From contig NC_045140.1 of the NCBI RefSeq assembly GCF_008831285.2, positions 3,327,528-3,391,527 of the forward strand: a DNA stretch of 64,000 bases, given 5' to 3'. Position numbers and translations under genes: made by a program. Every line of letters begins with the position of its first letter. Position 1 is the stretch's first letter. The notes under the pieces were generated by a model that searched no databases, was not told where the DNA came from, and worked only from the letters and a program-made list of their open reading frames with translations. This DNA comes from Nymphaea colorata. Lineage: Eukaryota > Streptophyta > Magnoliopsida > Nymphaeales > Nymphaeaceae. This document shows, in pieces, positions 6,800-62,510 of this stretch.

Positions 6800-8880
6800 G
6801 GTGCTAAACCTCACCCTCTAGGAGAATAGTGTTGAACTGACAACCTGTAGTTTACAAACCTGCCAGCTTGACCAGTTATGTTATGATCTTTCAAACACAC
6901 AAACCGCTTTAGCTTAGCATGACCACAATTAACCATATACTTGTAAAATTAGGTCGTAGTTGATACCCAGCACCGGCAATCCTAGGCCACCAATTCAAAC
7001 ACGCCGAGCGACAACATCTCTCAGCCAATTGGTTCTTGAACCCAATTTTTAGTTTAAAGGTTCCTGCAACTAATCCATGCTGGAGGCCGTTCGACCACGT
7101 AGGAGAAAAGCTAAGAGGTGGACGCCATTCGGTGGCGGTGACATGGCAGTGTCCTATTGGCTGCCCGAAAAAAAAGTGGGTCCTACAAAAGAATTGCACA
7201 TGAATGATTGGCTGCAACCACAAATCACATCATGTTAGAAGCTGGCTCACTTGATCCATGTTGTAACCCTACAACCGAAAGCTACAGCATTGAATATAAC
7301 AACTGAACTTTTCTTTTCCCTTTCCTTTTGGGAGGAAGAGAAAGAGCCACAACCCTGATAATATCGGAGTCGCGCTCTAGGCTGAGAGCCACCGGCGCCC
7401 AAACATTTGTGATCTATCTTTCCAGCGGAAGGGACAAATGCAGGATGTGAAGGTTTGATTCCACCCTCTGCATATCGACGACCCATGCATTTAAGTCCTG
7501 CAATGGTCGTTATGTGCCTCTATGAATGCCAATTGGTTGGCATCCCACATTTCTCAGTCACCAACCTCTCCTTCACCATGTGGGATGCCCCATTGGAGGT
7601 GCTACTGTGGCATGGATTCGTGGTATAAGGGCCCATATCCCGAGGAAATGACACCGACACGCCGCGTCGTGACAAATGGCATGGTATGACATGCCAACTT
7701 CATATTATATTATAATTCTGATATTTTGACGATATTTTCAATTGTCATATATATTATAGCAAGTGTGTTTCTTATAATATAACAATCCAATCGCCAAAGT
7801 CTCTATATGGGAAGCAATAGCATTAAACAATTTGTAACTTGTTTGTTTGCGTATGCTTTAATTTGCACCAATCAAAGGTTAATGGTTTCGTGTTCATACA
7901 CGAAACTAGTCAAATTTTTCCTTTCATCAAATGTGCAGAAACATTTCAATTTGGGGCAGACTAAAACCAACATGAGATTTACTTTTTTACATGCAACTGT
8001 ATTTGTATCTGATATATATGGATTGGGTATCCACTGACGTTGGTGAGAAATCCAAATTAAGGTACTGATTAGATCTGGTATTCCATATCAAATTATAGTG
8101 GGGTCTGAATCTTGATCCAATATCGATCTTCATCGGCGCCATTATAGTCGCAATGGAAATTGGTTGCAAGTGTTATGGTGGCTTTTGTATGTATCATAAC
8201 CTACCTTCACCCGTTCCCCGGCAACTAACTAATGACAAATCACGAATTGTAAAATCCTCGCACCATTTTGAGCTCCGTCGTATCACGACCACCCAATACA
8301 ATGCAATCACGGCCACTCAATACAATGCGATGGCCATGGGTGAACGTATCGGATGCCGATGTGCAGAAGTTTTCCCGTCCAAACTGGGACAGAGATCCAC
8401 AATTCCCTGGTACAACTACTAGCTAGATGCTATCCACCATCAGTACCAACTTCCACGTGTTTGTTGGTAATTGCTTTAATTACTTATTTGTTCATCTTTT
8501 TCTTTGTCTGATGCAAATTAATGCCTGTGAGAGAGACTAACAATTTGTTTTCCTTTTTCACAAACTAATGGCCACTCAAATTGTCTAGAACGAATTGAAT
8601 GGTTCCTTCCAGTGAATTCCATTGGAAAACCAATCAGGAACTGAACTCTTTTAATGGCAGCAGGTGAGGATCTCTGTGGTATATGTCTACTCTTTAGGAT
8701 GTTCTGCACTCGACTGTTTATAAAGATCCAGTAATATATATGAGGCGATCGATGACTGTCCCTCTGATACCGGCGCATCACCTGCTTTACTTGTGAAAGC
8801 TTCACAAAAATTAAAAAGAAAAAAAATATTACAAGTGACAATAAAAAAAAAGAAAACTCCACATTAAAAAGGAGGATGTT
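6800..8880. other. Intergenic, no gene recognised
   Basis: Short open frames only, none resembling a known family. It contains one notable hairpin at 7529-7596, listed separately. Confidence 0.5.
7529..7596 (+). other. Imperfect hairpin
   Basis: The left arm 7529-7550 (CCAATTGGTTGGCATCCCACAT) pairs with the right arm 7578-7596 (ATGTGGGATGCCCCATTGG) across a 27-base loop. The pairing core is a perfect GGCATCCCACAT/ATGTGGGATGCC, with a small bulge and then CCAAT/ATTGG. Neither arm matches a conserved plant microRNA that I can recall. It may be a MITE remnant or a young microRNA-like foldback. Confidence 0.4.
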
Positions 8881-10298: not shown

Positions 10299-10665
10299 CA
10301 TATAATCACAAAAAACGTGTTCTTTCTTTTAAAAAATAATAAATTAAATTACCGTTTAAAACGTTTAATAACATTTTTTTTGAAAAAACGAAAAAAACAT
10401 GTTTTTAAACGTGTTTTTCCATTTTTTCATTTTTTAATGCCAAATAGTTATTTTTATTTTTTATTTTTTATTTGTTGCAAATCTACTTATCTTTTGATGT
10501 TTGTGTTATTAGTTACTTATTTCATTTTTTTCTTCTATATTTAGTTTTTTCAATTTTTAAACATTTACCATATTTTTTCAGCTTTTTCCCTTTTTTTCAA
10601 GCTCGTTGTATTATATCCGAGAAAAACCTCGTCATTTAAAACTCCAAAACATTATTTGTAACTAT
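10299..10665. mobile_element. T-rich miniature element, family C copy 1
   Basis: Shares with 30719-31041 a long core (ATTTGTTGCAAATCTACTTA then TCTTTTGATGTTT) and terminal blocks: ATAATCACAAAAAACG at the left and CATTATTTGTAACTAT at the right. The ends are inverted repeats of ATAGTCACAAAT type. The flanking GGTTAGTT and GGTTTGTA may be a degraded target duplication. There is no coding capacity. Confidence 0.55.
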
Positions 10666-11947
10666 GGTTTGTATTAATTGTGCTCACCTGCTTACTGTAT
10701 AGCAATATTTTGGTTTGATTAGTAAAATGGTGGAAGGCCTATCCTCCAGCAGGGTTTGATTCAGAAATAGATATCATATGCCTCAGGTTACTTCTTTCAT
10801 AATCTGGCAGATATTGAATCGAGCTTCTATTTCAGAATCTACACTTACAAGTGCAGCCTAGGGAATGTACATCAGACAACACCAGTATGGAGCCATCTAT
10901 CGCCAAAATATAAAGTGGGATTTTTTTTGAAGCAGACCGACTGATCTGTTCTTAGCCTCACACCAAGTCTAAGGAAAACGTTATCCGAACAAGCTCCAAC
11001 CATTTGGCTCAGTGAATCAGCTTACATCAGACACAATTCGGACATGTTCATAGGACCCATAAGGGATTGTTTAGCAATGAAAATAGTAACATATTGTTTC
11101 GTGTATCGGCCTCAAAAATTGAGATAGATTTATAGTACTTTTTGACACAGTATTCCATGAATCTGTCTTCATTGTTTTAGTTGATTGATGAAACAATTGC
11201 CAAGAGACTATTAAAGAACACCATGAAGCGGAAAACAAACTTGAAAACTTCATCCGATCAGGCTTCCATAAGATCTGACAAGCAATGGAAGAGACAAGCT
11301 TATTTCACTGGACATGAATGCTTCAAACACCACACTTGTGAAACTCCCTTTTGTAGCCGATCCTATTTTCAAACTACCTTTTGCCCAACATATTAAACGA
11401 TTGTGGCCTTAGAGAGGTGAACTGATATTGAATGTTTGAGTGTGCATGCAGTGAGGTGTTTTCGTGCATGTATATATATGTGCATATTGTACATGCATAT
11501 GCATATTGTATAGCCTTCATGCATGCAATTTGTGGTTGCTACTTTGCTTCATGAAACGTATCCAGTGTAGTCCGTTGGCCCTACAATCTCAACTTGGAAT
11601 GTGCTGTGGAACCCACAATCACGTGTAGTGCAGTCGAGAAAGGACATCACTGCTTTTTCTGTGAATATGCGGTGCATATCCCTAATACCATCATCTCGTC
11701 CTGCCAATAAAATAAGCAGATTCTTTGTCCCCTTTGATATCGTTATCACTATCCGCTAAAGTATTTTCTACAAGATAAACATTAAAGAACAGTACTCGCA
11801 GATGCAACGACGCAGTCAGAAATTTTCTTGTTGATGGGCACTAAGTTTATGTGGGCAATGGCCTACACCAGCTTCTCTGTACCTCGGCCTCTGAACCAGA
11901 TGTTAGATTTTCCTTTCCCTTTTGCTCTATGTGCAGCACTAAATGGC

Positions 11948-20523: not shown

Positions 20524-20684
20524 TTAAAACTTCGATTGGTTGAGGGGCATGGGATAACAACTCACCATTCAGAAAAGAGATCCGAAGGCTCCCTCCATTC
20601 CCTCTTAAAACCTTGGTTGATCGAGGGTGCATGAGGATAACAACTCACCAATTGAAGAAGAGATCTGAATGCTCCTGCATCGGC
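20524..20684. repeat. Diverged tandem duplication, unit about 82 bp
   Basis: Copy 1 starts TTAAAACTTCGATTGGTTGAG at 20524 and copy 2 starts TTAAAACCTTGGTTGATCGAG at about 20606. Both contain GGATAACAACTCACCA followed by AAGAGATC and GCTCC. Several substitutions separate the copies. Confidence 0.75.
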
Positions 20685-30718: not shown

Positions 30719-31041
30719 ACATAGTCACAGAAAACATGTTTTCTTTTCAAAAAAAAAAAAAACATGATAAATTGCATGGCCGTTTAAAACTTTAAAAACA
30801 CATTTTTTTCATTTTTTCAAGTTTTTTTAATGTCAAACCATTTTTTTCATTTTTTATTTTTTATTTGTTGCAAATCTACTTATCTTTTGATGTTTTTGTT
30901 ATTAGTTTTTCACTTATTTTATTTTTCTCTCATTTTTAGTTTTTAAATTTTTTAAAAATTTACTGTATTTTTTTCAAGTTCGCCGTATTATACCCGAAAA
31001 AAACCTCGTTGTTTTAAACTTTGAGACATTATTTGTGACTA
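30719..31041. mobile_element. T-rich miniature element, family C copy 2, with 9-bp direct repeats
   Basis: The left end ACATAGTCACAGAA and the right end TTATTTGTGACTA form short inverted repeats. The element sits between identical 9-bp direct repeats TAGTCCAAA (30710-30718 and 31042-31050), although 7-8 bp readings are also possible because the ends overlap the inverted repeat. The T-rich interior shares a long core with 10299-10665. A 9-bp duplication would fit Mutator-type elements and an 8-bp one hAT. Confidence 0.6.
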
Positions 31042-31120
31042 TAGTCCAAATGAATAGTATTTATATAAATTTGAGACATTATTTGTGACTATGGTCCAAA
31101 TGAATAAATAGTATTTATAC
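31021..31120. repeat. 50-bp tandem duplication at the right end of the family C element
   Basis: 31021-31070 and 31071-31120 both begin TTGAGACATTATTTGTGACT and continue through TCCAAATGAATA to GTATTTATA. The unit spans the element's right terminus plus flanking DNA, so it arose after insertion. Confidence 0.85.
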
Positions 31121-31124
31121 AAAT

Positions 31125-32793
31125 TAAACTGATGACCGGACTTTCACTGGCCCACCAACCTGAACAGCTAGGCAAGCATGCAGTTGGATGTTAGAAAATG
31201 CCAATTAAAGTTTTGGAAAGAAAATATTCGCTTATAAGTTTTGCTGGTGGGGATGGATGGAACTACAGATATTGCTTAGGCAATTACGGCAATAGCAAAG
31301 CGAACATAAATTTTGGCACGCAATTCAAGTGCTGGCATCAGCAGGAGACCCAACTAGTAGGCATATATAACCTCACTGAATCTATTCCAAAAAGAAAACT
31401 GGCCTGATTTTGCACTGGTTCAGTATGGCATTGGAAATTCCATCTAGCCGGCATGATCCTGTTGTTCCTTGGCATTCTGAATTTTTCTTTTGACTCTGCA
31501 ACCTGAAAAGAGGGGCCATGACTATAGCAATCAGACTCAGATGGGCCCGGGTGCTGGTCCAAGTTGGTCGGTGAAAGTTGGCCAATTGCGGCCAGGCCAG
31601 GAAAGTTGACACTGAATGTCAATATCAAATAAACTTTTACAAGTTGGGAAACTTCTTTATTCCTCATTTCCTTCTTTGGTGGAGCCAAAAAGTCTGGCTG
31701 CCTAAGCACTAATTGTTTAAGTTCTAAACTTTACAAGGCTCCTGTATATAAATAAATAAAAACTAGAAAGTACCAATGTAGAAATAGGAGAACTTCTATA
31801 GGCTGGTGTGTGGCCTATGGCTCAGCCTATACTTGCCTCCACTACTAATTTCCTGATGCCTAGCCATTTCATTGTTGTTTGAGATCCTTACAAGTAGTAG
31901 CAGCAGAGCTAGAAAATTTTCTTGGGAGAAACTAGTATATAATTTCCAAAATTTTCCGCAGGCTGAATTGAAATCATTATGAATTTTATATGGTAATTTT
32001 GAATTTTTTCAAAATTAAGTACCACTGCCCCTGTTGCAAGCAAGGATGTGCCACTGATTGCCCTTTTCATCATTACCGTTTTCATCATTGGCGAACCATC
32101 TATGCCACTGATTCTAAGATTTTTTTTTTTTCTATTTCCATTGAAAATGAATAGATTTCATCTATTTACACATTTGCTATACTATACACCCAAAAGGACA
32201 AGGACAAGAAGTAATAAAATGAAATAAATGTTTATAAAGCACATATTGCTACGTTGATTCCCCCAATGCTAGGGTTATTAGAAGAATAGAAATGAGTTTG
32301 ACCTTTATCTCAAGGAGAACCATAGCTCCAAAACATATCTTCAAATGAATTGACCTTTTACTATGAATGTCTAAATGATATAAAAAAGTCTTTCAAATGA
32401 AAATTGCAGGTTGTATGAGTCAAGATGTATTTTCGACATGCACTTCTTGATCTCCTTGTTGTTACCAGATGTATTTTGACTGCAAAAGCCATGTACATAA
32501 ACTGCTCAACGATTCAGAGTCATCAACCTGTTTTTAATCTTCTGCCACTCTTTATCATTCAAGAAATCATTAGTCAAAAGTACTTTTATTGCTGATGCTA
32601 TTTCTACAAACGGTTTCAGAATTCATCTTCTCTTATTTCTAAGGCAGTTTAGCTCCTTATTGTCCTGAGGAAATAAAATCATGAGAGGAATCTATTTGAG
32701 AAAATGTGCTTCTCCTATAAGTTTAATATTGGTAGTTTTAGTTTTCCTTAGCAAACAGGTGTCTTAAAGAAGGAGAAATTTTTCAGTAAGAGT
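31125..32793. other. Intergenic, no gene recognised
   Basis: Short open frames only. The segment near 31910-32060 (AGCAGAGCTAGAAAATTTTC through CACTGCCCCTG) is a weak match to the family E type of repeat. Confidence 0.45.
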
Positions 32794-33480
32794 TGTTAAG
32801 GTAGGTTCGGATGTCGAGTAAAAAACACTAGATAAGTCAGTTAAAAGATAAATAAGAAAATGCTATAAATTTGTTGTAATGGCTCGGTGTACACTCTCAT
32901 TGATTATGTAAATAAATTTTGATTTTACTGTCCTTCGTAAATCATTTCCTTACGCATCAATTGTAACCTCCTCAATGTTAATAACATTCTCTGTCTCCTA
33001 CTTGTAGAGATGATAAAAGTTTTGCACATCCTGCCTCACTTCTTCTTTATGGCATTAAAGTTATTTGCTATCCCTATTACCATTCCCTTGTGTCTGTGTT
33101 TGTATAGTCTTTCTTTTGTTTACAAGGCTCATTTGCACTTGTAAGGGAGCCTCCCACTGGCCCAAGTGTCATGTTTAGGATTCTTTGCATTGAGCGTTCG
33201 ACATGAGGATCCTTGTATGAGTCTTCCAACACCCTTGTAAGTAAAGTCGAGTCAATTTCCTTGTTTAGTTTCTCTTGTATTGTACTACCTTTTTAAGTGA
33301 ATGAAACAGCTCGTCACAAGTTCTTCTCCTCCCTGTGTCGCTTTATGCACTCTTTGTTTGCTAGTTATATGTGCACTCGTTTACCCCTTTAGGCTTGCTT
33401 GCTTTTGAAGGACACGCCGCATGGGCCATCACCCCGTGACAACTACAATGGCGTCTTCTTCTTTAGCCCAGTAGATTGTG
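32794..33480 (+). repeat. 5' LTR of copia element 1
   Basis: Starts TGTTAAGGTAGGTTCGGATG. The first 260 or so bases align with 37871-38130, sharing CTTGTAGAGATGATA, TTTGCACA and CTTCTTTA blocks with substitutions and indels. The end is placed just before TGGTATC at 33491, which resembles the start of a tRNA-Met primer-binding site. The exact end is uncertain by some tens of bases. Confidence 0.65.
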
Positions 33481-33490
33481 AGTGCGAGTT

Positions 33491-33506
33491 TGGTATCCAT
33501 AAAGCT
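33491..33506 (+). other. Degenerate primer-binding site of copia element 1
   Basis: TGGTATCCATAAAGC matches the first seven bases of the usual plant initiator-Met site (TGGTATC) and then drifts. Confidence 0.4.
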
Positions 33507-33539
33507 AACTAGAGATAACTATCTGTTGTAGAGAAGTCA

Positions 33540-34330
33540 GCTTGAGTCGGTGATTATTTCTCAAGATCTTTATGTGATTCGTTGATGAAACTTCATTGCA
33601 ACCTGACCAATATGTCAAAATGGATGAAAAGGATGAACTCAACTTTGAGTTCACTGCGTAGCATAAATCGTACTGGCTAGCGTTAAGCTGGATCAAGGGG
33701 ACGACATCTGAGGCTCTTCTCGGACAAATAATTTGGAGTCGATTATCTCGTGAAGCTGGGGCATTGATGGAAAAGCATATGGATCTTAGTGTCATTTATG
33801 CATAACGATGGTGAAAAAGGAACTCATATTTATTAAGAAGGAGAATCTTGATATGATGGCATATTTGGAGAAAATAAAATTTCTTGTAGATGCAATAGAA
33901 GCTGTGGCCTGTGGGATCACATACTACTGAAGATGATCTTGTACAAATTACCCTAAACGGGTTCTCAGCTGGTTACGAGAGATTTGCCACTTTTGTAGTT
34001 ACCTCCTCAAGATCATCATTATCATTTGCAGAATTATATGATTTCCCCCTAAACTAGTAAAACATCTACAGATTTTAAAACCAGTTGCATCAACCAAGAG
34101 ACAAGACAAATGTTACGACAGCCTTTAATGTATTCAGAGCCCGTGGACGAGGACGATGATGATACTGAGGCTGTTCTTGATGAAAAAGATGCCAGTAACC
34201 TCAAACCAATAATCAGTCGTTTAAGAATGAGAACTCAGGGACCAATCAACAACATCCCATTATTTGTCAATACTGTGGCCAAAGATTGACATTCCTCGTG
34301 TTTTCTCTACTATGATTTTGCAAGAATTGG
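33540..34330 (+). pseudogene. gag remnant of copia element 1
   Basis: Broken frames give MMAYLEKIKFLVDAIEA, EDDLVQITLNGFSAGYERFA and SSRSSLSFAELYD. This is the order of the gag domain of Ty1/copia elements (capsid-like, UBN2-type). Near 34255 the start of a CCHC zinc knuckle (CQYCGQ) is visible but its C-terminal half is lost. Stops and frameshifts show it is non-functional. Confidence 0.65.
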
Positions 34331-34384
34331 AAGATGAATATTGGTACCTCGACACCAAAGCAACCTAACAACATAGTCGGTACT

Positions 34385-34660
34385 GATGAACGTCTTGGAA
34401 ACAAAAGAGTATATTGGGTCGGAATAATGGTAAGTCACTATATATTGCTTACATTGAAGATTTACCTATTCAGGTTCAAGGAAAGAATTTTCTTTTGAAA
34501 AATGACGTGCACATGCCTAAGAAGATAGCAAAATCGATCTTAGTTGGACGATTTACGATGGATAATAATTGTCATTTTGAATTTTATGCATCTGAATTTT
34601 TTATTATTGATGGACAACTTGAAAAAGTGGTTTTGAGGGGACAGAACATGTGATGAACTA
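34385..34660 (+). pseudogene. pol remnant between protease and integrase of copia element 1
   Basis: GKSLYIAYIEDLPIQVQGKN, then FLLKNDVHMPKKIAKSILV, FTMDNNCHFEFYASEFFI and KVVLRG. This is the conserved stretch after the copia protease and before the integrase. The catalytic protease motif upstream is not recognisable. The frame is cut at about 34660 by the TRIM-like insertion and resumes at about 35110. Confidence 0.7.
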
Positions 34661-34664
34661 TGTC

Positions 34665-35109
34665 TCTAACACCTAAAAATTTTAGTTTCGTAGTGAAGAC
34701 TGTGAGGGAACTTCAAAGGCATATAAAGGGGGTTATTAAATATATGGTTCTTTTGGTTTCTAACCTTTTTGGGTTGGAGCCGAAACTACTATGGGGCGGG
34801 TTCATCAAACCAGGGGCCCGAGCCCAGGAGTGGATCGGGTTGTTACAGTGGTGTCAAAACGGGTTCAACACTCGGACTTAGGGTCCACACACGCGGACGC
34901 ATATATCTTAATGGGGTGGACTGTAACAACTTAAAAATTTAGTCTTGTATTGAAGATTGTGAATGATCTTCAGAGGCTTATAAAGAGAGTTATTGAATAG
35001 ATGGTTGTCCAAGTTCTTAGCATTTTTATGGTTGGAGCCGAAATTGTTAGGGACAGGTTAGGATCCATCAATCTAGGGGCCTAAGCCTAAAAGTGGGTTG
35101 GGTTGTTAC
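34665..35109 (+). mobile_element. TRIM-like miniature LTR element, copy 1, nested in copia 1
   Basis: Two direct repeats of about 182-188 bp (34665-34847 and 34922-35109) share CTAAAAATTTTAG or CTTAAAAATTTAG, CTTCAAAGGC/CTTCAGAGGC, TATAAAG, GGTTGGAGCCGAAA and GGTTGTTAC. They bracket an interior of about 75 bp. The downstream repeat starts TGTAACA and the upstream one ends TGTTACA, which are inverted as expected for LTR ends. Right after the first repeat, TGGTGTCAAAAC at 34849 resembles the tRNA-Met primer-binding site, and ATGGGGTGGA just before the second is polypurine-like. It encodes no protein and must use enzymes from elsewhere. GTCT occurs at both outer edges (34662-34665 and 35110-35113), a possible remnant of the target duplication. 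The copia frame is interrupted precisely here, showing nesting. Confidence 0.75.
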
Positions 35110-36085
35110 GTCTACTGAACGTCAAAATGGCAGAATTTGAGGATCATATGAACCATGGAAGACTTGAGCATGCAAATATAAAAGTTATGTGGTTATTGAA
35201 CTCTCTTAATCTCATTTCAATAAGTTCTCCACCACCTACAGCTGAGTGTGAACATTGTTTGAATAGGCATGCACATAAATTGTCTTTTTCTGTATCTAAT
35301 TTTCATTCTTCTAAAGTTTTATATAGTTAATTCACATGGATGTATGGGGCTCGGCTCATGAAAAAAATATTTTCCTTTCATTGTTGACAATTCCTTTCAT
35401 TGTTGACAATGAAAAAAATATAAATATTTTCCTTTCATTGTTGACAATTCCTCAAGATTCTCATGGATATTCCTATTGAAAAATAGATTTGACATGTATG
35501 ACTGCTTCACCAAGTTCCAAATTCATGTTGAAAGAGAGTTGGCAACCAAAATTAAAATGATTCAGTCAGACAATGGGGAGTTTTGTAGTCAAGAATTTGA
35601 AATGGACTTGGAAATGCAAGAATCACAAGATATGTTGACCAATTTTCGTCTCAATACATGCCAAAACGAAATGGTATTGTTGAACGTAAAACCAGACATG
35701 TGGTAGAAACTAGTTTAAGTATGCTTCATGATGCTCGGTTAGATAATAAGCATTGGGTGTTAGATCATAAGTATTGGGCTGAAGCATTCTGGATAACCAT
35801 GTATATTATTAATAGGCTTCATGCCCTCAAGCTTAATAAAAAGTCTCCATTTCAGCTCATGTTCAATAAAAATCATGACTACTCAATGTTGCAAGTTTTC
35901 GGATCTACATGTTATCCTCTCATTTCTTTTACTAATACTTCCATATTTCAACCAAAATTAGCAAAGCACATTTTTCTTGGCTATGAAAATAGGCACGAAG
36001 GGTATTTGTGCTTTGAACCCACGACAAAGACATTAATTATTTCCCACCATGTAATATTTAAGGAGCCAGTGAGGGGGCTAGATTC
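35110..36085 (+). pseudogene. Integrase remnant of copia element 1
   Basis: CEHCLNRHAHKLSFSVSNFH corresponds to the region just before the integrase core (H-C type zinc residues). VDNSSRFSWIFLLKNRFDMY (35445 on) carries the first catalytic Asp, QSDNGEF the second, and RNGIVERK the Glu, so the D-D-E residues survive across frameshifts. GSTCYPLISF, LGYENRHEGYLCF and VIFKEP are the usual C-terminal copia integrase blocks. A local duplication of CCTTTCATTGTTGACAAT at about 35375-35450 breaks the frame ahead of the core. Clearly a pseudogene. Confidence 0.8.
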
Positions 36086-36124
36086 AACGTCTTCTTCAAT
36101 TGTTGACCCAGATTTATAGTTTAA

Positions 36125-36685
36125 ATCCTTTCATCTGAACACATGTCAACATATTGAAGACCACATGTGCAAGGTGGAAGTAAAGGTGCTAGTTCATCTT
36201 TGTTGGCATCTAACAATATTGTATTGTTTTTCTCGCTTTATGATCACACTTGTCCACAGGTCCTAGGCTACCCATCTTCATCTGTCGATCCAACCCAAAT
36301 GCATGACACATTACATGGCCATCTTGGCTCACCAAATTTTTCATTCCAATCAAGCCTTATACTAGCAAATTTACCCCAACCAAACTGCAGTTTGTCACCT
36401 TCTACACATCATTTTTACTCTTACAAGCAGTGGTCCTCAAGTCCCACTATGATCAGACTCTCATCCTGTGGTAACCCGTTCAATGACAGGTTTACTTCAA
36501 CTCAAATCATTCTTCACCGATCTTTCTAAACATGTCAACCAAATACCAACAACCACAATCCTATAATGAAGAATGTGGAACACTGCAATGGTATCTAGTG
36601 ATGCAACAAGAGATTAATGCTCCCCACAACAATCAAACATAGAGGCTAATATCGAGGAAACCTAAATATAACGTTATTGGCAGTA
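36125..36685. other. Spacer between integrase and RT of copia element 1
   Basis: Low-complexity Ser/Pro/Thr-rich frames with stops. This matches the poorly conserved linker that copia elements have between integrase and reverse transcriptase. Confidence 0.5.
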
Positions 36686-36689
36686 AATG

Positions 36690-37815
36690 ATTGTACAAGT
36701 GAAAAAGCTTGTTGATGGATTTGCTGCTAAATACAAAACACGATTAGTGGCCCGTTGGTCTTTGCAAGAAGTTTGAGTGGATTATACAGAAATATTCAGT
36801 CCCACCACTAGACCAACCACTACTCGAGTAAGACTAACTATTGCAGTCCAACATCATTGGCCACTTCGGCAATTGGACTTTGACAACCAAAAGTATTCAT
36901 TAATGACTCTAAGTACATGCATTATGTATGTTGACTACAAAAGGCACTCTATGGTCTCAAGCAGGCTCCACGTCCTTGGTATTAAGTCAATTTCTCTCAT
37001 CTTTTGGATTTCGGGTCTCATAGTCGGATGCCCGACTTTTTACTCTCACTCACCAAGGAGACTGACTTTACTTACTTGTTCATGCTGACGATGTAATTAT
37101 CACATACTCCTCCGCCTCTCTTATAAATCAGATACTTCCTCAACTTCAGGCCTCTTTCTTAGTCAAGGATCTTAGAAATCCTAATTATATCTATTGAAGT
37201 AGAGCAGCAACCTCCTGAATTTACTCTTTGTCAAACTACATAAATTCGCTCTATTCTTCAAGAGGCCTGCTTGGCCGAAGTAAAAGCTATCAACACGCCC
37301 ATGAGCACATGCAAATCAGTTTCATCTACCGCTCTGTTTTCAGAATGTGGTGGGAGCATTACAATAACATTACCCTCACTCGTCTAGGTGTGGCATTTGT
37401 TGTAAATATGGAATGTCAATTCATGCACATACCTTAGATTGTCATTTGGCTCTTGTACATGCATTTCTTCGATACATGAAAGGTACTAGTCGCTATGGAT
37501 TATGTATTTAGTCCTCCAATAGTCTTCACTTAAGTGTTTTTGCAGACATTGATTTGCGGAATTGTTACGGTTAAAGTCTCTCCTTTTTGAATTAGGTTTT
37601 CACAAGATTGGAATTCCTACTTTATGGTGTGACAACATTGGGGCACTATATCTTGCTGCTAATCCAGTTTTTCACGCGTGGACAGAACATATTAAAGTTG
37701 ATTTCCATTTTGTTAGAGATCATGACGAATGGGAGGTACCTCAATCAGGTTTATTTAGTCTTCGGAACAACTTGCAGATATAATGATGAAGCTTTTTGGA
37801 TCAATAAAGATTGAT
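36690..37815 (+). pseudogene. Reverse transcriptase and RNase H remnant of copia element 1
   Basis: DYTEIFSPTTRPTTTRVRLT and HHWPLRQLDFDN begin the copia RT. A deletion then joins to the segment that in another frame reads ALYGLKQAPRPW. The catalytic-box region reads VHADDVIIT, so the Asp pair is kept but the usual Tyr-Val before it is not. RNase H survives as [32 protein letters not shown] and [13 protein letters not shown]. Stops and frameshifts occur throughout. Confidence 0.75.
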
Positions 37816-37870
37816 AAAACGAGAGACAAGCTAAGCAAATGCTGCCTAGCATGCTCAGCTCATGGGAGCA

Positions 37871-38130
37871 TGTTAAGGCTGGACTGGATGTCAAGCAGGA
37901 AAAACTATATATGTTAGTTAAAAGACCAATAAAGAAACACTATCAATTTATTGTAACAGCTCATTGTATATTCTTCCTGATTGTGTGAATCAATTTTGAT
38001 TTTGTTGTCCTTTGTAAATTATTTCCTTAGGCATCAGTTCTAACCTCCCCAACGTTAAAATTACATTCTCTGTGTCTCATACTTGTAGAGATGATAGAAG
38101 CTTTGCACAACCTGTCTCGTTTCTTCTTTA
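37871..38130 (+). repeat. Truncated 3' LTR of copia element 1
   Basis: Starts TGTTAAGGCTGGACTGGATG directly after a purine-rich stretch (CATGGGAGCA), and aligns with the first 260 or so bases of the 5' LTR. Similarity stops after TTCTTCTTTA, so about 60 percent of the LTR is missing and no target duplication can be read. Confidence 0.75.
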
Positions 38131-38131
38131 A

Positions 38132-38750
38132 GAGCCTCACCTACCTAGTTGAGCACTGGACTCTGTATCTTGAAGTTGAAAAAAGTGAGAGATCAACATC
38201 CAAGAAGTGTATCTCTGCCTAAAAGAAAGAACGGCTAGGTCGACTTAGCTACTATGGTACATAATACATATATGATAACCAAGTTGCTAGAGGGAATATT
38301 TTCTAGACGAGGTTAAAGATGCTAGAGGTCGGGTGTGGAAATGGAAGGTTGTACCATTTAATAGACCTTTAAGCCAAGTGCCTCCGACTTAGAACCCTAG
38401 CTTGATCAAGTGGAAGCGATGAAAATTGTTTGATCAAGTGGAAGCAATGAAAATTGTTTGGCGTCGACAGCCAGGTATGGCTAAGTCAGTCTCCATTGAA
38501 GCTATCGATGAACCTGGATTTGTTGATGCATCAGCCATGTGTTAGTGATTCCATGAGTCCATGGAATCTCACTGGTGTCGATCTATTTCAAGCATGATAA
38601 TCACTAGTGTGGGTACTTCATTAAGAATGTGTACAGGGAGATCGATTCAAGATTTTCATTCTAGATTTTGTTTACAAACTTCAACAATGCATACATATTT
38701 TGTGTGTTAATTTCCTTGCTGCTTTTGATTAGTTTTATCTAGCTTTGACA
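38132..38750. other. Intergenic, no gene recognised
   Basis: Holds a 28-bp tandem duplication (listed) and nothing else recognisable. Confidence 0.5.
38403..38458. repeat. 28-bp tandem duplication
   Basis: TGATCAAGTGGAAGCGATGA followed by AAATTGTT occurs twice, 38403-38430 and 38431-38458, with one G/A difference. Confidence 0.9.
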
Positions 38751-60273: not shown

Positions 60274-60711
60274 AGTAATACCTCAAAAATTTAGTATTGT
60301 ATATAAGATTATGAAAAATTTTAGGGGACTTATAAATGAAAAATTATTAGTTGTCTGGGCTTTTATCTTTTTTTTTGAAGGGGAACTGAAACTACTAGAG
60401 GACAGGTTGAGATCCGTTCAGGCTTGTGTGAGAGTGAATCAGGTTGTTACTCTGGTACCAGAGATAGATTCAACACCAAGACCTAGAGTCCTATATGGGT
60501 GGATGTGTGTGCCTTAAGTTAGTAGATTGTTACACCCCAAAAAGTTCAGTGATGCATCTCAGTTGATCAAAAATTTAGGGGACTTATAAATAAAGTTGTT
60601 AAGTGATTAGTTGTATCTTTTTTTGGAGTAGAAGTGTCATTGCTAGGACATGGGTTGGAATTTATCAGATCAAATGCCTGAACCCAGTGTGAGAGTGGGT
60701 TGGGTCGTTTT
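60274..60711 (+). mobile_element. TRIM-like miniature LTR element, copy 2, nested in copia 2
   Basis: Two direct repeats, 60274-60451 (about 178 bp) and 60528-60711 (about 184 bp), share AAAAATTTAG, GGGGACTTATAAAT, TTTTTTT-GAAG/GGAG, GGACA-GGTTG and GTGAGAGTG blocks. They surround 76 bp. Directly after the first repeat, TGGTACCAGAG at 60453 differs by one base from the plant tRNA-Met primer-binding consensus TGGTATCAGAG. The interior matches copy 1 (34848-34921) at TTCAACAC, the following GAC.TAG.GTCC, and GG-rich end. The second repeat begins TGTTACACCCC. Non-coding. It lies in the opposite orientation to its copia host and separates the host's zinc knuckle from its protease region. Confidence 0.75.
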
Positions 60712-60779
60712 CTGGTCCCCATTTGCATTTCAGTGGGTTGGTCTGGTATGAGAAGTTATGGGAATGAGTATATTACAGC

Positions 60780-61430
60780 ATCTCTAATTCGTGAATTTCT
60801 AATGATCGCCGTGTTCCGCATGCTGGATCCTCTACTATTTCAATTGCTATGAAGACCTTAGGATGATCATAGCAATTCTTGCCAATGTGATTCTTCCTGC
60901 CACATATTTGACATATTATGTAACACATTCTTATTGTCATACAGACCTTTAGTTCCTCTGCCAATGTCTTGGAACCCATACTTTGATCGGCCATCACCTT
61001 TGCTATGGCCACGGTCTCTTCCATGGCCTCGTCCATGCTGAGAAAAGAGGGCAACAGTAGTAGACTCAGACGTACCTTGGAGCCTGTTATTCATCACTTC
61101 GAGCTGTTTTTCGTAGTTGATAAGGAGTAGCTTGAGAGTTGTCACGGTATGAACAAAGCTCTCATAGCCACTACCTAGACCACTAAAGATGAATATAACT
61201 AGATCAGACTCTTTAATTTCTTCTCCGATAGACCTGAGAGAATTGGCCAGATACTTAACGTGATTAAGATAATCTGCCATAGATTTTTTCAGCCTTAGAT
61301 ATGTTCTGAAGTTCATGCTTCAGCTGGAGAATTTTAAGGCTGGCCTGAGATGCGAAGGCCTTTTCCAGAAGCGATGGCCTTTTGCTGAGATGGGTTAAGA
61401 GCTGTTTCTATGGTACCCTTTCCGTTTCAA
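60780..61430 (-). pseudogene. gag remnant of copia element 2
   Basis: The minus strand reads ASLKILQLKHELQNISK (61380-61330), then MADYLNHVKYLANSLRSIGE, EIKESDLVIFIFSGLGSGYE and a Gly/Arg-rich linker (HGRGHGRDRGHSKGDGRSKY). In a shifted frame it ends with an intact CCHC zinc knuckle CQICGRKNHIGKNC (C-x2-C-x4-H-x4-C). This is the complete gag order of a plant copia element. At least two frameshifts are needed to read it through. Upstream of 61430 the similarity stops, and no LTR or primer-binding site was found. Confidence 0.75.
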
Positions 61431-61562
61431 TTTGCAGAGTTTGAAGGGGGCACAAAGCTACACGTCAAAAATGGTATAACAGCGAAGGAGAGGAAAGGAA
61501 GGCTTGGAGGAAAATTTTGAAGACTTAAAAGAGCTGCAAAACCGAAAGCTATGGAGCAGGGT

Positions 61563-61690
61563 TCGAGGCAGGTGTGGGCAATTGCCCACATGAGCCACAG
61601 AAAAATACTTATTTTTATATTGACACCTTAGAGTAATTTTGTTCATTTATATGTTGATACCCCTTAAAAAATTAAAATTTATTGACGATT
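61563..61690. mobile_element. Family D miniature element copy with intact palindrome
   Basis: Contains the perfect 18-bp palindrome TGTGGGCAATTGCCCACA at 61573-61590, identical to that at 15843-15860, followed by the shared T-rich TTTATATTGACACCTTAGAG-type segment. The right end (CTCCGCC-like) is missing, so this copy is truncated. It lies about 130 bp beyond the copia 2 fragment. Confidence 0.55.
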
Positions 61691-61699
61691 AAAGTGAAT

Positions 61700-62510
61700 T
61701 CATGAGTAAAGTGGACTAATGTTTCCACTTTAGAGAGATTTTCCGCATGGTCTGGTGGGCTGCTTGGTGTTCGTGATTTAGGAAGACGGTATTTTGTTTC
61801 CATCTTCCTTTTTGGTTTTCAACAGTGACAAGGATCCCCCGCAGCAAAAACTCTTGGAAAAATCGAGTCAATTGACCTCGCCCGGTATTGAACTAGCAAG
61901 CTTTCTCACAGATAGCCGGACTACTGTCTTAATAAATCAGAAACGAAATGAAGTCCAGTACATGGAGATGAATTAAAGCGCACAAGAATTTATTATGGGG
62001 ACTCGAGAGTTTATCCATATTCGAACAAGAGCAATAGGTGCCTGCTGCTGTGTTCGATGGTTGTGTCGGATTATTCTTATTAGGTAGCCAAGAGTATTAA
62101 CCAGACAGAATCTGAGATAAAGCATAAATAGATTCCCAAACTCATAAGAACAGGAAGGCAAAAACCCAAAGCAAATACATAGACTGGGCCTTTGACAAGC
62201 AGGCCTTTTTCCTGCTTTTCTAAAGATCACCAGCTTCCGTCGATGATATTTTTAAGGTTGCATATCAGCTGAATTCAAGCCAATCTCCATCTTTCAACTC
62301 TGGTTTGTTCAGCGTCTGAAGTTGAGCTCAAGTTTGGTTTAGCCTGCGGAGACTGACTTCGGTTGAACGGCATGCCTATTAGGCATAAGAGCTTTATCTA
62401 TTTTCTGAGAAGGTAAATAGGTAGTTTAAGTTCGTGGACGCATCACCTAAGAGCATGACCCTATAGGACCAACAGAATGTCAAATTGCTGCTTTTCTGTC
62501 ACAAAAGAAG
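61700..62510. other. Intergenic, no gene recognised
   Basis: 61840-61950 read on the minus strand has a GTTCAATACC box B-like word, but no tRNA fold. Otherwise nothing. Confidence 0.4.

Follow-up and report, generated by a model that had tools for sequence, protein, structure and literature searches.

Introduction

A decayed copia element in Nymphaea colorata harbours, within its gag-pol region, a 445-bp stretch (positions 34665-35109 of the window, that is, the whole 64-kb stretch of DNA analysed here), which an earlier reading of the letters alone had taken for a TRIM-like element nested in a copia gene. The question raised by this locus is whether the stretch (copy A) is an element in its own right or a by-product of larger LTR elements. 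We conclude, with a probability of roughly 0.97, that it is an old member of a plant TRIM family present in many copies, as indicated by its two LTRs, its 74-bp interior, and relatives across the genome that carry target-site duplications (TSDs). Elements of this kind, interiors this small, and tandem arrays like those described below are all already known, and the family or subfamily is an ordinary kind of TRIM, left without a name here. A badly decayed, non-coding element of 445 bp was thus read correctly from raw sequence, and the TRIM family described has copies ranging from old to very young in one genome.

Structure of copy A and its copia host

The coordinates of the features in the window are collected in Table 1. 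Both the pair of LTR-like repeats and their divergence had been predicted, and both are borne out: the repeats align with a local score of 133, where none of 500 dinucleotide shuffles exceeded 28, and the alignment of 34665-34847 with 34922-35109 has 137 identical sites among 182 ungapped aligned sites, with 29 transitions and 16 transversions (K2P 0.309 +/- 0.051). The interior is within a base or so of the predicted length of about 75 bp. The ends of the LTRs read TCTAACACC (decayed TGTAACACC) and TGTTACA / TGTTAC, and the TATAAA motif occupies the same LTR position in all four LTRs of the window (copy A and a second copy, B).

Table 1. Positions of the two TRIM copies and of their copia hosts in the window.
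Feature	Position	Strand	Remarks
Host copia 5' LTR	32794..33049	+	flank AGAGT left
Short target repeat GTC, left (ATGTC if 5 bp)	34662..34664	+	incomplete TSD
TRIM copy A 5' LTR, 183 bp	34665..34847	+	TATAAA at LTR position 58
Copy A interior, 74 bp	34848..34921	+	
Copy A Met-type primer-binding site	34849..34860	+	9/12 to TGGTATCAGAGC
Copy A polypurine tract, decayed, before 3' LTR	34908..34921	+	weak here, clear in many relatives
TRIM copy A 3' LTR, 188 bp	34922..35109	+	TATAAA at LTR position 58
Short target repeat GTC, right	35110..35112	+	
Host copia GAG-pre-integrase + SH3-like region	35091..36119	+	E 0.0018 (below Pfam cut-off); PF25597, 1.8e-18
Host copia 3' LTR	37871..38130	+	flank AGAGC at right end of element
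TRIM copy B 5' LTR	60274..60451	+	nhmmer
Copy B interior, ~76 bp	60452..60527	+	PBS 10/12
TRIM copy B 3' LTR	60528..60712	+	nhmmer; genome relatives
Second host copia, gag side	60713..62500	-	Retrotran_gag_2, 4.6e-7

The predicted primer-binding site (PBS) begins one base past the 5' LTR and was scored against the Met-type consensus; a score at least equal to that of copy A occurs at 18 of 63,989 window positions. The letters TGGTATCAGAGCC of this consensus are present in a published TRIM survey (PMC4717578). The predicted polypurine tract (PPT) fared less well in copy A itself, where 9 purines in 12 bases are equalled at 6,830 of 63,988 window positions, which is background level; it is clear in many relatives, whose tract at this position reads like TAAGGGGGGTGGAT. 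The target duplication is likewise partial: GTC stands exactly at both edges, counting the last bases of the 3' LTR gives ATGTC/ACGTC (4/5), and with the ends fixed to +/-1 base the match is 2/5. The longest stop-free stretch is 71 codons, and, judged by this and by the length of the interior, no protein is encoded.

Neither the 5S rRNA-like sequence found in the LTR of Cassandra, also of the TRIM class, nor the hammerhead ribozyme that defines retrozymes by its presence in their LTRs was matched in copies A and B, both of them decayed; the Rfam searches gave no 5S rRNA match at the gathering score within the 64-kb window, and no hammerhead match. At E values up to 5, the region 32500-38700 gave a single chance-level match (mir-653, E 2.6), outside the element.

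The 5' LTR of the host copia is followed by a degenerate PBS-like sequence, and its outer flanks, read by eye, nearly match. Its LTRs are identical at 202 of 256 sites (K 0.255 +/- 0.038), its RVT_2 match on the + strand is weak and below the cut-off, and three of six host fragments are without any Pfam match. The original prediction had the copia frame stop at the left edge of the element. The listed upstream frame stops at 34653, 11 bases before copy A, and the host frame was already broken there for a reason other than the element. When the empty site is rejoined around a single GTC, the 153-bp join can be read through in a different frame. The insertion itself therefore looks precise, with the stop close by appearing as a separate lesion.

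A second copy in the window

Copy B lies in a second copia, whose domains are on the other strand, with Pol_BBD (5.9e-9) on the side of copy B opposite to the gag domain. The LTRs of copy A alone match it at 60276-60450 (E 6.5e-12) and 60532-60709 (E 5.8e-6), the best E in the reversed-window control being 2.6, while the copy A interior alone reaches that of copy B only at E 0.53. Copy B is the older of the two, with an LTR divergence of K 0.438; no TSD was recognised around it. Its relatives occupy at least 51 places in the genome, with 66-85% identity apart from itself (40 of 144 candidates scored), and some of these loci also match copy A. A profile built from the four LTRs found no solo LTR in the window.

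Among 21 informative sites in the LTRs of A and B, 16 group the LTRs by copy, with 4 and 1 for the alternatives, and the grouping by copy recurs in 996 of 1000 bootstraps. Because the two LTRs of a fresh copy come out alike from reverse transcription, this grouping is a mark of reverse transcription and speaks against the duplication of a finished unit. It also bears on the divergence of copy A, which is nominally higher than that of its host (K 0.309 versus 0.255) and might be explained if its LTRs had already been unlike at insertion, as in a recombinant cDNA. The excess is not significant (z 0.85), however, and the two LTRs of copy A group together; we regard such an origin as very unlikely.

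The family across the genome

The assembly to which the window belongs (407.8 Mb, 783 contigs) was searched with copy A, giving at least 44 places (986 candidates, 40 scored), of which 42 start no later than query position 5 and reach at least position 441; with the match of copy A to itself set aside, identity is 73-80%. Thirty loci were taken by their likeness to copy A, and, as two of them (L023 and L024) form one array, 29 are distinct, copy A included. Full-length copies with 5-bp duplications are indeed present: with the ends fixed to +/-1 base, an exact 5-bp TSD flanks 22 of the 29 loci, four more match at 4/5, and three, copy A among them, at 2/5, whereas mismatched flanks gave an exact TSD in 4 of 812 pairs. 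The TSD sequences vary between loci, and the two-LTR copies sit at different sites. The family therefore has multiple complete copies with different TSDs, copy A having a partial one.

Three-LTR arrays make up 4 of the 29 loci (L006, L011, L017, and L023). In the 29-locus alignment, LTR divergence ranges from 0.011 to 0.169 among the two-LTR copies other than A and reaches 0.25 in three-LTR copies, copy A being the highest of the set at 0.316. The PBS is perfect (12/12) in 16 of 33 interiors, that of copy A counted, and its best match lies at offset +1 in 32 of 33; one locus (L030) has lost it. Interior length is 65-77 bp in 32 of the 33 cases and 34 bp in the other. The PBS by the 5' LTR and the PPT by the 3' LTR, weak in copy A, are thus features of the family, and a perfect Met-type PBS together with a clear purine tract is often found in the young copies, whose LTR divergence starts at 0.011. 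A query made from a young interior matched at least 40 places at 97-100% identity (40 of 563 candidates scored). Twenty stretches were drawn from these matches, some overlapping loci already counted among the 29; of the 19 tested for TSDs with the ends free to +/-3 bases, nine have an exact TSD and canonical ends, and one further TSD, in a T run, is doubtful.

A sample chosen independently of likeness to copy A was obtained from the LTR-PBS junction GTTGTTAYARTGGTATCAGAGC, which occurs exactly 180 times (88 + 92) in the genome and not once in the reversed control. From 100 listed junctions, 20 stretches on contig C1 covering 23 of the 180 were taken, and in all 20 a TRIM interior follows the LTR. 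Eleven are plain LTR-interior-LTR copies, the other nine being tandem, truncated, or broken. Exact TSDs were found in 4 of the 20, all among the plain copies (4/11), with a further 4 of 11 plain copies at 4/5. In three of the 20 (L081, L088, and L097) only the first ~9 bases of the 3' LTR are present before unrelated sequence begins. A lone LTR (L047) has no matching flanks.

These relatives bear on whether copy A might instead be an internally deleted copy of its host copia or of another element here, with no TRIM family of its own. An origin of TRIMs from LTR retrotransposons through internal deletion has been proposed (PMC4717578), and the family as a whole may have arisen by deletion from an unseen parent. 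For copy A itself we consider such a local origin improbable to a high degree, since its LTRs have no match to those of the host copia (window self-BLAST, E 1e-6) and the unit recurs across the genome at about one size. That copy A is nothing more than the LTR and leader of a larger element duplicated in tandem, as three-LTR and multi-interior arrays and an array repeating the TRIM five times in 958-bp units might suggest, is scarcely credible against two-LTR copies with ~76-bp interiors and exact TSDs at different sites (22 of 29 loci) and a junction sample in which none of the junctions was observed to open into a large LTR element (the three without a 3' LTR having been followed for 647-711 bases only).

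Relation to known TRIMs and a possible mechanism

A TRIM, as delimited by Gao et al. (2016; PMC4717578), is shorter than 1,500 bp, is bounded by two direct terminal repeats, exists in two or more complete copies with different TSDs, and encodes no retrotransposon protein, and in size, lack of protein, and copy number the present family fits that description; copy A is well within the size limit, and copy B has no recognised TSD that would add to the count. A close likeness by description is maize Wukong, as reported in PMC4528315: it too has two LTRs similar in size, a small interior with PBS and PPT, and a 5-bp TSD, and it also occurs as tandem arrays in which three LTRs or more are counted. 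The comparison is one of description, not of sequence, and the Wukong LTR is 230 bp against 183-190 bp here. As Wukong (532 bp) has a 72-bp interior (PMC4528315), the original prediction went too far in placing the interior of copy A at the very small end for TRIMs, and whole elements smaller than copy A are described at 292 bp (PMC3281118) and 233 bp (PMC4717578). SMART / FRetro129 is similarly non-coding, with TGT...ACA ends, a 5-bp TSD, and copia proposed as partner, but differs in its proportions (292 bp in total, 85-bp LTRs, 122-bp interior) and its occurrence in grasses (PMC3281118). Gao et al. (2016; PMC4717578), whose survey has 156 families, report that tandem arrays are common among TRIMs. 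A literature search with the LTR and PBS letters found nothing related, and a viral-contig collection, in which plants are not expected, gave 0 matches to the family patterns.

On the features described above, transcription from the promoter in the LTR, with its TATAAA at position 58, would yield an RNA on which initiator-Met tRNA could prime reverse transcription one base past the 5' LTR. Because the element is without coding sequence, it would be mobilised in trans, with reverse transcriptase and integrase supplied most likely by copia-type elements, as suggested by the Met-type PBS, the 5-bp TSD, and the published partners; integration of the cDNA would then duplicate 5 bp of the target. 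Copy A probably entered its copia not long after the copia's own insertion, both having decayed since. No autonomous partner was seen in the small samples examined, and a coding partner was not found for 278 of the 289 TRIM subfamilies in the account of PMC4717578.

A composite copia and other observations

A composite copia at C6:23690213-23693359 (matched as L044, L061, and L062) has, in order, a copia LTR, a shared PBS, a TRIM interior and 3' LTR, the remainder of copia pol, and a copia LTR, and is without the stretch between the copia PBS and the TRIM PBS. Its copia LTRs are identical (283/283), its flanks are GGAAT/GGAAT, and the sequence to the right of the TRIM maps into the middle piece of the copia at 99.5% over 838 columns; this copia is young and abundant, with at least 40 places, all at 98-100% (40 of 1142 candidates scored). 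Tentatively, and with some doubt, a nested TRIM may give a copia a second identical PBS, at which a plus-strand jump during reverse transcription would yield a shortened copia carrying TRIM sequence. This is a reading of one locus, and the locus is explained just as well by a simple loss of the DNA between the two 12-bp sites once the element had inserted. For Triticeae, LTR elements packaged together have been proposed to undergo template switching (PMC1950507). A possible role of nested TRIMs as decoy primer-binding sites for copias could become a testable question.

Among the 20 stretches drawn from the interior matches, three (L039, L044, and L049) are without a TRIM 5' LTR directly at the PBS, which would suit template-switch chimeras. 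Seven places have a base other than A two bases before the PBS; two of these are L044 and L049, and the other five are TRIM copies in which a TRIM LTR or interior precedes the PBS. For L049 the chimera reading fails: a long-LTR element stands there between a partial TRIM 5' LTR with decayed PBS-like sequence and the PBS, and a nested insertion would be the simpler reading; only L044 remains as a candidate for a switched junction. In L039 (G000 C724), a sequence ending in GTGTGACAGTAA precedes the TRIM interior in place of the 5' LTR.

At L031:1243-6032 (G000 C3:26775242-26780031) there are five head-to-tail 958-bp units with one TRIM each, all identical to the first (958/958), an array that is either very recent or an assembly artefact. 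In L052 and L081 a lone 5' LTR precedes four and three tandem interiors, respectively; the family thus has repeats of the interior alone in addition to the usual LTR-interior arrays. The LTR remnant in L081, L088, and L097 reads TGTAACACC or TGTAATACC, with three different following sequences and breakpoints at about the same place. Elsewhere in the window, a dispersed repeat at 10414-10668 and 30804-31045 is 77.5% identical over 262 columns, and an 83-bp unit at 20524-20675 is present in about two diverged tandem copies.
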